DNA of 32,224 nucleotides from an uncultured Alphaproteobacteria bacterium. Its GTDB lineage: Bacteria; Pseudomonadota; Alphaproteobacteria; CAAHEQ01; UBA3637. Both the position numbers and the translations under genes were made by a program. Shown piece after piece: positions 6,531 through 31,851 of this stretch. Positions within the stretch are counted from its first letter, which is position 1. Each line of letters begins with the position of its first letter. The stretch lies in contig CALXXA010000020.1 in NCBI GenBank assembly GCA_944392585.1, forward strand, positions 1 through 32,224. Direction: 5' to 3'. The notes beneath the pieces were generated by a model. It did no database searches. It was not told the origin of the DNA and saw only the letters and a list, made by a program, of their open reading frames with translations.

Positions 6531-6605
6531 TGGTGGGTGTGACAGGGATTGAACCTGTGACCCCTACCGTGTGAAGGTAGTGCTCTCCCGCTGAGCTACA
6601 CACCC
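6531..6605 (-). tRNA. tRNA-Val (anticodon CAC)
   Basis: A complete 75-base cloverleaf read on the minus strand: acceptor GGGTGTG/CACACCC, D-arm AGCTCAGCGGGAGAGC, anticodon stem CTACC/GGTAG around loop TTCACAC (anticodon CAC, reading GUG), T-arm with GGTTCAATCCC, and an encoded CCA end. Confidence 0.96.
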
Positions 6606-6695: not shown

Positions 6696-6724
6696 TTGAC
6701 AAATAAAATAAATTCTATTATGGT
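6696..6724 (+). promoter_or_regulatory. leuA leader promoter
   Basis: TTGACA (6696-6701), a 17-base spacer and TATGGT (6719-6724). Six bases later comes the A of the leader-peptide ATG at 6731, which would be the expected transcription start, so the leader mRNA is probably leaderless. A better hexamer TATTAT overlaps at 6716-6721 but with only a 14-base spacer. Confidence 0.7.
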
Positions 6725-6730
6725 TAAGTT

Positions 6731-6799
6731 ATGAAAAATTATGTGTTAACATCTTTGCTTCTTTTATTGGGAAATGATTTTCATCTCCTAAAGGGGTAA
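6731..6799 (+). CDS. leu operon leader peptide (LeuL-like)
   Basis: A 22-codon open frame that begins MKNYVL, contains TSLLLLLG (five consecutive Leu codons at 6755-6769), and has two more adjacent Leu codons at 6785-6790, with its stop at 6797. Eight of 22 residues are Leu. It sits between a promoter and an intrinsic terminator directly in front of leuA, which is the arrangement of an amino-acid attenuator leader. No Shine-Dalgarno site is present; the start codon coincides with the predicted transcript start. A leaderless leader peptide is known for trpL of Sinorhizobium meliloti, another alphaproteobacterium. The peptide itself probably has no function beyond sensing charged tRNA-Leu. Confidence 0.85.
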   Translation: MKNYVLTSLLLLLGNDFHLLKG

Positions 6800-6843
6800 T
6801 ATTGTTGACAAGTGTTAAGGCGCCCTTTTAGGAAGGGCGCCTT
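6767..6843 (+). promoter_or_regulatory. leu attenuator: competing protector, antiterminator and terminator hairpins
   Basis: Three mutually exclusive structures can be drawn. (1) A protector hairpin 6767-6791, with core ATGA/TCAT around a TTT loop. (2) An antiterminator pairing 6786-6796 (TCCTAAAGGGG) with 6823-6833 (CCCTTTTAGGA), 11 pairs including one G-U. (3) The terminator 6817-6843. The antiterminator uses the 5' arm of the terminator. A ribosome stalled on the Leu run (6755-6769) would leave 6786 onwards free and favour the antiterminator; a ribosome that reaches the stop at 6797 would cover it and favour termination. The geometry matches classical ribosome-mediated attenuation of leucine biosynthesis. 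Structures were folded by eye. Confidence 0.82.
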
Positions 6844-6848
6844 TTTTT
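6817..6848 (+). terminator. leu attenuator terminator
   Basis: An 11-bp GC-rich stem (AAGGCGCCCTT / AAGGGCGCCTT) with loop TTAGG and seven T residues, 18 bases before the leuA start. There is no gene between it and the leader peptide, so it acts as an attenuator and not as the end of an upstream gene. Confidence 0.9.
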
Positions 6849-6866
6849 ATGAAAGGAAGAAAATTA

Positions 6867-8375
6867 ATGAAAGAACCATTTTTTTATGACACCACATTAA
6901 GAGACGGGAATCAAGCTTTAAAAAAACCGTGGAATACAGATGAGAATCAAATAATTTTTAATGAATTGATTGAACTCGGCGTTCAAGGGATTGAAGTCGG
7001 TTTCCCCATAGCCAGCGAAATGGATTTCAATGCCTGTAAATTACTGGCGAAAAAGACTCCGGGAACAGTTGTTGCCAGTGTATTGGCACGAGCAAATAAA
7101 AAAGATATAGAAGCTGCTGCGGAAGCAGTAAAATATGCAAAAAAGCCGCGTATTCATACATTTATTACAATGAATCCTTTAGGATTAAAATATGTATTAA
7201 AAAAAGATCTTCCGACAGTAACACAAATGGCAGTTGATTCTGTCAAATATGCCAAGAAATTACTACCGAAAGGGGAAGTTGAATTTTCTGTTGAACATTT
7301 CGGAGATTGCCGAGAAAATTTACCTCAAGTTATAGAGGCTCTTGAGAAAATTGTTAAAGCCGGAGCAGATGTTATCAACTTACCGAACACCGTAGAACGC
7401 TTTCGACCGAGAGAATTTACATCTATGGTTGAGCAAGTTTATTCTGCATTAAGAGAGAAAGCAGTTCTGTCTATTCATTGCCATAACGATTTAGGGATGG
7501 CAACAGCTACGACGGTTGAAGGATTTTTCAGTGGAGCAGCTCAATTAGAAACGACGTTAAATGGGATCGGAGAAAGAGCTGGAAATACAAATATGTACGA
7601 AGTCGCCGTCGCTCTGTATAACACAGGCGTAAAAGTACCTTTAAAAATGAACCGATTCTATAATTCATCTAAATTAGTTTCAAATATGAGCAAAATTCCT
7701 GTCTGGGAAAAGGCTCCCATCATAGGTTCTGATGTTTTAGCTCATCGTAGCGGGATTCATCAAGACGGTGCAAATAAAACAAAAGGTCTATCAAAAGGAC
7801 AATATATTGCTTTTGATCCCCGCCTTATCGGGAGAGAAGATGGAGAACAGCTTTCTTTCACAAGTCAATCTGGAAAATCCGCTCTTTACACAATCTACCA
7901 AGAACGAGGTTATCAAATTACTCATGAAGAAATAGAATATTTAATGCCTTTTGCGAAAACAATGGCTGAAAAACATGGTGAATTATCATTCAAACATCTT
8001 GATAATTTATATCGGCACCATTTATGTACAGTTAAAGGAAATTATAAATTCAGCTCTTTTAATCAAATATCCAATGATAAATATGCTGTATCATTTAGTT
8101 ACAAAGATCAACAAATCGACACAATAGGAAAAGGGAAAGGGCCGGTTGAAAGTTGTATTAATGCGTTATTATCACTCGGCGTTGCTATTTCTGTAATGAA
8201 ATATGAACAACACATGATGAATGAAAAAGAAAAAGAAGCCGCGGAAGCGATGACAGTTATGATACTAGCGAAAGGAGATAAAAAAATTGTCGCTCGTGCT
8301 ATCGACAGGTCAACAAATCAATCTAATATAAAAGCCATTTTCAATGGACTAAATCGTTTAGAAAATGGTTGTTAA
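6867..8375 (+). CDS. leuA: 2-isopropylmalate synthase
   Basis: A 502-residue enzyme condensing acetyl-CoA with 2-oxoisovalerate, the first committed step of leucine synthesis. The TIM-barrel catalytic domain (about 1-280) has DTTLRDGNQ (catalytic R12, metal ligand D13) and metal ligands H204 and H206 in IHCHND. The segment HRSGIHQDGA follows, and the C-terminal roughly 130 residues form the leucine-binding regulatory (LeuA dimer) domain with GKGPVESC. The start at 6867 is chosen over an ATG six codons upstream because that one lies against the terminator T run, while AAAGGAAG precedes 6867. The attenuator structure upstream implies control by leucine. Members of this family also include citramalate synthases, but the leader argues for LeuA. 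leuB/C/D are not adjacent. Confidence 0.93.
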   Translation: MKEPFFYDTTLRDGNQALKKPWNTDENQIIFNELIELGVQGIEVGFPIASEMDFNACKLLAKKTPGTVVASVLARANKKDIEAAAEAVKYAKKPRIHTFITMNPLGLKYVLKKDLPTVTQMAVDSVKYAKKLLPKGEVEFSVEHFGDCRENLPQVIEALEKIVKAGADVINLPNTVERFRPREFTSMVEQVYSALREKAVLSIHCHNDLGMATATTVEGFFSGAAQLETTLNGIGERAGNTNMYEVAVALYNTGVKVPLKMNRFYNSSKLVSNMSKIPVWEKAPIIGSDVLAHRSGIHQDGANKTKGLSKGQYIAFDPRLIGREDGEQLSFTSQSGKSALYTIYQERGYQITHEEIEYLMPFAKTMAEKHGELSFKHLDNLYRHHLCTVKGNYKFSSFNQISNDKYAVSFSYKDQQIDTIGKGKGPVESCINALLSLGVAISVMKYEQHMMNEKEKEAAEAMTVMILAKGDKKIVARAIDRSTNQSNIKAIFNGLNRLENGC

Positions 8376-8466: not shown

Positions 8467-9204
8467 TCAGAACAGACTTAAGAAAATTCTGATTATTTTC
8501 CTTGAGAATCTATAATACTTCCTTTGAGGATATTTTTTTAATAATTGAGCTTTCAATACTGCCTTATGATGTTTTTGTTGTTGCTTGTTTCTTGATTCCG
8601 TTTCATTTTTTATTCTATAGAAAAATAAAAGCTCCGAGACTTTATAAATTTTAAGATTATGCCTTAAAACCATATTTAACCATAAGTCATAATCCTCAAG
8701 TCCGAGTAAAAAATTTTCATCATATCCCCCTGCTTTCATAAAATCGGATTTTCTAAATAAAGCAGAATTTATTAAACAATTATTTATAGCTAAATGATAT
8801 TTAGACGGAGATTTTAAAAATAATTCTCCCTTCTCTTCTCCAAATTTCATAACTCTGGAAGTTATAATATCCCCTTTATTGTTAATGATCGCCTCAAAAA
8901 GCTTTTCTAAACAGTTCGGAGATATTTTATCATCTGCATCCAATGGGTAGATATATTGTCCGGATGCCTGTCTTATCGCATTATTTCTAGAAAAAATGAC
9001 CCCTTTATTTTCCTGATTAATTAACTTAGAATTCTTATATTTATCTACATACCTTTGAATAAGCTCTAAAGAATTATCTTCCGATCCATCATTGACAATA
9101 ATAACTTCATAATCCTTAAATGTTTGCATTAAAACAGAACCCAGGCATTCTCTGATATATTGAGCTTGATTATAGCAAGGTATAATAATAGAAATCATAG
9201 ACAT
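8467..9204 (-). CDS. Family 2 glycosyltransferase (GT-A)
   Basis: A 245-residue GT2 enzyme. It starts with SIIIPCYNQAQYIRECLGSV, has the nucleotide-binding NDGS (38-41), the metal-binding DxD-type motif DADD (89-92) and the acceptor-side ED motif in GLEDYDLW. These enzymes transfer a sugar from a nucleotide-sugar donor; donor and acceptor cannot be read from the sequence, but capsule, lipopolysaccharide or glycan synthesis is likely. It lacks a membrane segment. AAGGAAAAA lies about 10 bases before the start. It follows the next glycosyltransferase by 3 bases, so the two are co-transcribed. Its last codons contain a near copy of part of the leuA terminator (see findings). Confidence 0.87.
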   Translation of the reverse strand: MSMISIIIPCYNQAQYIRECLGSVLMQTFKDYEVIIVNDGSEDNSLELIQRYVDKYKNSKLINQENKGVIFSRNNAIRQASGQYIYPLDADDKISPNCLEKLFEAIINNKGDIITSRVMKFGEEKGELFLKSPSKYHLAINNCLINSALFRKSDFMKAGGYDENFLLGLEDYDLWLNMVLRHNLKIYKVSELLFFYRIKNETESRNKQQQKHHKAVLKAQLLKKYPQRKYYRFSRKIIRIFLSLF

Positions 9205-30969: not shown

Positions 30970-31851
30970 TTACCTCTCCAAAGAGTTCTCAATATCATTC
31001 CATGGATCTCCTTCTCGTGTAATGATGGGTAAAAGAGAATATGTAACGATGTTAAAAAAATACGGATTTTGCATTATATCTTCCAAAGAGCTTAAATTGG
31101 CATTAAAATTAACTCGTAAGAAAGCTTTATATCTTTGAATATAAGAAGCTTTCTCTCGTAAGCATTTTAGGCACTCTTCATCTTTAGTCAAACAATGGCA
31201 CATATTTTGATCTGTTTTTTTATTGTCAAAAAGGAACCAATCAAAGACAACTTCAAACAAATTTGTATTCACGTTATTAATAAAATAAATGTACACTTCT
31301 CCTGTTATCCCATTATTAAACAAAGTCAGAAGTTGATTTTCAGCTTGTTCTAAATCCTGTTGTAGGTTTTTATGAAGGAGTAAATAAAGTTTACTTCCTT
31401 CTGCCATTCTCATTTTCATTGTTTCATAGCTAGGCACAATTGTATATCGGAGCGTAATATACTCTTCAATTAAGTTCTCGGCAACCAACACTTGAGCAGA
31501 ATAAATCGTCCGAGATAATTCAATAGGTTTGATAGCTTTATTAAACATGTCTAAGCGATATAAACCTGTTGAATAAAGATAGCGTTGATCAGCGGACACA
31601 TTTTGAGGGGGAGGAGAATAAATAGAAGATGAAACAGAAGAAGCCATCTTTATATAAACAAATGCAAAGCCAAAGTTAAAAGAGATACTAATAAAAGCAA
31701 TAATTGCCATGACACGAGAAGTTTTTAAATATCTTCTTTCTGGAAGAGCCTGAACATGCATTCGTTCAGGATACACCCCAATTACATCATTTGTTTGTTG
31801 TTTTTTATACCTTAAAACTTTAGAAAAGATAATTGAAAAAATGGGTGGCAT
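30970..31851 (-). CDS. Possible VirB8/IcmL-like bitopic membrane protein
   Basis: A 293-residue protein with a cytoplasmic N-terminus (about 45 residues, with VYPERMHVQALPERRYLK), one transmembrane segment (about 46-68) and a periplasmic domain of about 220 residues. The helical start of that domain (LVAENLIEEYITLRYTIVPS) and its size resemble the NTF2-like VirB8/IcmL periplasmic domains of type IV secretion systems. An unusual CHCLTKDEECLKC cluster lies near residues 225-240. Similarity is by topology only. No other secretion gene follows within the window. AGGAGGAG precedes the start. Confidence 0.45.
   Translation of the reverse strand: MPPIFSIIFSKVLRYKKQQTNDVIGVYPERMHVQALPERRYLKTSRVMAIIAFISISFNFGFAFVYIKMASSVSSSIYSPPPQNVSADQRYLYSTGLYRLDMFNKAIKPIELSRTIYSAQVLVAENLIEEYITLRYTIVPSYETMKMRMAEGSKLYLLLHKNLQQDLEQAENQLLTLFNNGITGEVYIYFINNVNTNLFEVVFDWFLFDNKKTDQNMCHCLTKDEECLKCLREKASYIQRYKAFLRVNFNANLSSLEDIMQNPYFFNIVTYSLLPIITREGDPWNDIENSLER

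Follow-up and report, generated by a model that had tools for sequence, protein, structure and literature searches.

In Streptomyces lividans, leaderless leucine leader peptides lie upstream of leuA (leuL1) and of leuS (leuL2), and leuL1 is without a typical Rho-independent terminator (PMC8079986). The actinobacterial LEU element also precedes leuA and may form a pseudoknot (PMC1262725). In Sinorhizobium meliloti, transcription of trpL begins at the leader ATG, and both the leader RNA and the leader peptide act in trans (PMC7298713). Here we describe a leader directly in front of a leuA gene in an uncultured alphaproteobacterium, within a stretch of 32,224 nucleotides (the whole of which we refer to as the window, and to which all coordinates refer). 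This leader is very probably a ribosome-mediated leucine attenuator with a leaderless leader open-reading frame, controlling a lone LeuA that is kept by selection in a genome which seems unable to complete leucine synthesis.

Architecture of the leader

A consensus scan and the homologous promoters both place a sigma-70 type promoter on the forward strand at 6696-6724, with a -35 TTGACA at 6696-6701, a 17-nt spacer and a -10 TATGGT at 6719-6724. Six bases further on, an ATG at 6731 opens a 22-codon frame without a Shine-Dalgarno sequence (6731-6799, forward strand, predicted leaderless start), which encodes the leader peptide MKNYVLTSLLLLLGNDFHLLKG and ends with a TAA stop at 6797-6799. Five consecutive Leu codons (TTG CTT CTT TTA TTG, 6755-6769, forward strand) form the predicted ribosome stall site. 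All of these elements were read where the original prediction had placed them.

The competing structures follow on the same strand. Segment 2, the 5′ half of the antiterminator (6786-6796, TCCTAAAGGGG), contains the last codons of the leader frame and pairs with segment 3, the 3′ half (6823-6833, CCCTTTTAGGA), which overlaps the 5′ arm and loop of the terminator; the 11 antiterminator pairs that had been predicted were confirmed, one of them G-U. The intrinsic terminator (6817-6848) has its stem at 6817-6843, as predicted, although with 12 pairs rather than 11, closed by a 3-nt loop and followed by T7. The predicted 17 bases from the Leu run to the antiterminator hold for the distance to the CCTAA core of segment 2, whilst the distance to its first base at 6786 is sixteen. 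Folding also joins segment 2 to the last part of the Leu run, so that the 3′ end of 6755-6769 doubles as arm 1 of a 1:2 hairpin; this hairpin did not figure in the original prediction, and it completes the classical set of segments 1 to 4. The leader combines a run of codons for one amino acid with a mutually exclusive antiterminator and terminator ahead of a structural gene, spaced such that the predicted stall site would free segment 2 and the stop codon, directly 3′ of segment 2, would mask it.

The gene that follows, leuA (6867-8375, forward strand), encodes a LeuA2-type 2-isopropylmalate synthase with a LeuA_dimer domain, is preceded by an AGGAAG Shine-Dalgarno sequence and is monocistronic, its downstream neighbour being a convergent gene at 8467. 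On the other side, a minus-strand tRNA gene (6534-6605) separates rpsA from the leuA promoter and points away from leuA.

The fold of the leader (6731-6850) has a z-score of -6.6, with none of 200 shuffles as good, and of 2000 dinucleotide shuffles, 1 matched the antiterminator energy for the leader of the window and 0-16 did so for the homologous leaders described below, more than would be expected of chance sequence. Only one other frame of 12-40 codons in the window contains LLLLL, a minus-strand GTG frame at 31715. Rfam covariance models found no attenuator, T-box or riboswitch in the window, where four tRNAs alone reached threshold.

Homologous leaders in the family

A protein search recovered orthologous leuA genes in 7 of 43 family genomes, spread over three genera, and each of them is preceded by a leader; an order-level search yielded the same 43 genomes. 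Apart from the window, the carriers are G028, G030, G057 and G058 in one genus and G018 and G024 in another, with leuA identities of 64-70%. The seven genomes hold six distinct leaders, the homologous peptides being MKNLTLNLLSSLLLGYDVHLLKG, MNNKKLHLLLCLLGNNNHLLRG (alike in G018 and G024), MLRKVNELLLLCLLGNDSHFLKG, MKNVTLLLLLNLLLGHEVHFLRG and MKNVTLLLLLNLLLGLELHFLRG. These contain 8-11 Leu in 22-23 codons, and the Leu positions are kept through synonymous TTA, TTG, CTA, CTC and CTT codons. All six distinct leaders, which come from three genera, have the Leu run and the four segments, and in each the run ends 17 nt before the CCTAA core. Ten of the 11 pairs of the antiterminator keep standard pairing throughout, varying solely between A-U and G-U. 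Each feature is carried by one to seven genomes, all of them drafts.

A covariance model built from the six distinct leaders and run on the 43 family genomes scored 106-129 bits at the seven leaders and at most 39.5 bits elsewhere. The weaker matches were set aside as chance terminator-like sequences; a short frame with a Leu run was found in just two of the nine such loci inspected. The gene neighbourhoods differ between genera, which indicates that leader and leuA stayed together while their surroundings changed.

This comparison bears on the predicted leucine attenuator, its leaderless layout and its control of leuA, all of which are supported by the homologous leaders in all seven genomes. 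Relatives lacking the Leu codons or the competing pairing would have spoken against it, and both are kept in every one. The expectation that stems would covary was borne out thinly: the covariation term is +0.53 and the upper parts of the helices hardly vary, a weak support that reflects the few and conserved rows of the alignment.

Predicted leaderless start

The leader ATG lies 36 nt from the first T of TTGAC in the homologous leaders and 35 nt from it in that of the window, which puts the predicted +1 on the A of the ATG or beside it. A Shine-Dalgarno sequence is absent before every leader ATG and present before every leuA ATG. From these features the leader frame is probably leaderless and translated without a ribosome-binding site. 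The window promoter matches the consensus at 10 of 12 positions, a level of match that is common in this AT-rich DNA (shuffles average 3.0), so that transcription could instead begin at an upstream promoter and give a classical attenuator with a longer 5′ UTR. We consider this improbable, since the TTGAC-ATG distance is fixed at 35-36 nt in all leaders despite differing flanking genes, and since the leader ATGs differ from every leuA in having no Shine-Dalgarno sequence.

Predicted switching

With a leaderless start, we infer the following course of events from the arrangement of the segments. Transcription would begin on or beside the first base of the leader frame, and a ribosome would follow the polymerase along the leader. 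Where charged tRNA-Leu is plentiful, the ribosome would reach the stop at 6797-6799 and cover segment 2, allowing the terminator to form before leuA. Where it is scarce, the ribosome would stall at 6755-6769 and cover segment 1 only; segment 2 could then pair with segment 3, no terminator would form and leuA would be transcribed. Without translation, segment 1 would pair with segment 2, giving termination by default.

Fold models agree with much of this scheme. When the RNA reaches the terminator loop and the ribosome is halted at the final Leu codon of the run, the antiterminator forms in all six leaders, and with the ribosome at the stop codon the terminator forms in all six; together with the constant 17-nt spacing, this upholds the prediction that the Leu run lies at the right distance to free the antiterminator. 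For the full transcript with a stalled ribosome the antiterminator is preferred in five of six, the exception being the leader of the window, which prefers the terminator. Its terminator is stronger and wins at full length, and in these models antitermination there would have to be kinetic, decided during transcription. In half of the leaders, Leu is also encoded by both of two further codons (CTC CTA) that lie in or beside segment 2, and a stall at these would block the antiterminator, which counts against the attenuator reading.

LeuA and the rest of the pathway

The LeuA of the window scores 529.6 bits against the LeuA2-type isopropylmalate synthase model NF042434 (cut-off 500) and 44.4 bits for the LeuA_dimer domain PF08502, and falls below the cut-off of the canonical bacterial model TIGR00973. 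In the tree, the seven family LeuA proteins form one group (support 96/100), whose sister is that of an uncultured bacterium (L031), where leuA comes after two genes taken as leuB (isocitrate/isopropylmalate dehydrogenase) and leuC (aconitase family). The next relatives are from Gastranaerophilales, a Dependentiae bin and Fibrobacter, whilst other alphaproteobacterial LeuA proteins are far off, those of same-class genomes grouping with Bradyrhizobium and Salinarimonas. A horizontal origin of the family leuA is likely. A leader common to the Gastranaerophilales-type relatives was considered and dropped, no frame with a Leu run being found upstream of their leuA.

We searched eleven family genomes for the remaining enzymes: six leuA carriers including the genome of the window, two with another LeuA (G003 and G015) and three with neither. 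Ten of the eleven, all six carriers among them, are within limits of 90% completeness and 5% contamination (G002 has 6% contamination). No match was found in the eleven for leuB (TIGR00169), leuC or aconitase (PF00330), leuD (PF00694), ilvD (PF00920) or an ilvE-type aminotransferase (PF01063), the families that the search covered. Each of the pathway-family searches matched 13-14 of 14 control genomes, and within the genomes PF00682 recovered LeuA and a second member of the superfamily in all of the carriers searched, including G024. LeuA catalyses step one of leucine synthesis and the enzymes of later steps were not found in the searched genomes, so leuA stands alone. The original description of a lone leuA was correct in that the gene is monocistronic, and understated in that the genome yielded no match for the remaining enzymes either. 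Judged by these gene families, the lineage (G000 with ten relatives) seems to be a branched-chain amino acid auxotroph without aconitase.

This raises the question of whether the leader is a relic, with the leucine pathway lost and both attenuator and leuA on their way out. The lack of matches for leuB, leuC, leuD, ilvD and ilvE fits such decay, as does the absence of this leuA from most family genomes, including two of the same genus. However, dN/dS of leuA is 0.03-0.21 in the six pairs for which it was computable (synonymous sites are saturated in the L001-L003 pair), the frame and motifs are intact, and every part of the switch is kept in three genera in different neighbourhoods. The gene thus appears intact and under strong purifying selection, and decay is an unlikely account of it.

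Other leucine leaders

One relative without the orthologous leuA, G003, has a different, shorter, canonical-type and non-orthologous LeuA without the dimer domain (L015, 1250-1450). It too is directly preceded by a Leu leader that looks leaderless, MMQQLNLQNLLLLCLLLLGIEKPNRRALL; the spacing is again 36 nt, a terminator is present (AACACCCTTCGGGGTGTT), and no match for leuB, leuC or leuD was found in this genome.

Leu-rich leader frames also occur ca. 220-245 bases upstream of leuA in Fibrobacter (L036-L039). They resemble the leader of the window in being Leu-rich, with the ATG ca. 7 nt after a TATATT-like -10, a terminator before leuA and the same LeuA subfamily, but have no leader sequence in common with the window family and may be independent. 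From this layout, they are possibly leaderless leucine attenuators in another phylum; we found nothing in the literature on Fibrobacter leucine leaders.

Candidate Leu leaders lie upstream of leuA at four Rhizobiales loci (L073, L085, L087 and L012), where a simple scan found no terminator. Like that of the window they belong to the same class of bacteria and have LLLL near the end of the peptide, yet they differ in sequence, are longer, end in LLLLSCP or LLLLIGP and precede a canonical LeuA. The DNA around their Leu runs is similar, and the peptides are reminiscent of S. lividans LeuL1 (LLLLSCRGEGL).

Discussion

The leader and its homologues extend leaderless leucine attenuators to small-genome alphaproteobacteria and provide a compact set of homologues for study. 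The gene behind the leader encodes the first enzyme of a pathway that otherwise seems to be absent, an enzyme which is under selection and apparently under the control of leucine. This raises a testable question, the role of isopropylmalate synthase in an auxotroph. We tentatively suggest, as a reading that is plausible yet short of probable, that the attenuator is kept for an isolated LeuA in leucine auxotrophs, where leucine scarcity would induce an enzyme whose product could not be converted to leucine and would serve another end (export, an exchange with neighbouring cells, or some other reaction), and that a switch of the same kind persisted or arose anew before an unrelated LeuA in one relative. 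Literature searches found nothing evidently relevant on orphan leuA, judged from titles and abstracts, and nothing on auxotrophy in RF32-type gut alphaproteobacteria. As a caution, leuA with an attenuator is not proof of leucine prototrophy.

Proteobacterial attenuators were reportedly surveyed by Vitreschak et al. in 2004, a study that PMC1262725 cites, and leuA attenuators in Alphaproteobacteria may already be described in the full survey. The idea that the combination is new as a kind does not stand, as a leaderless Leu leader before leuA is already known in S. lividans (PMC8079986) and candidate Leu leaders precede leuA in Rhizobiales as well. The S. lividans leader, leuL1, is likewise a short leaderless frame that carries a Leu run and immediately precedes leuA, but lacks a typical Rho-independent terminator, whereas the leader of the window has a full terminator/antiterminator pair, a pair that also sets it apart from the actinobacterial LEU element with its possible pseudoknot. 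In leuL2, the leaderless Leu leader is followed by a hairpin and a T stretch, as here, but controls leucyl-tRNA ligase (leuS) rather than leuA. The trpL of S. meliloti is likewise an alphaproteobacterial ribosome-mediated attenuator with a transcript from the leader ATG (here predicted), but has Trp codons and controls trpE(G). The same layout, with a 5′ end at the ATG and a terminated leader, gives a precedent (PMC7298713) for a main product acting in trans, a ca. 118-nt attenuated RNA or Leu-rich peptide comparable to rnTrpL and peTrpL, but this is most improbable here, as the leader was always directly before a leuA and never found alone in the 43 family genomes. Set beside S. meliloti trpL and Streptomyces leuL1 and leuL2, the predicted leaderless leucine attenuator is a switch of a known type, and the surprising part is the orphan leuA, not the switch itself.
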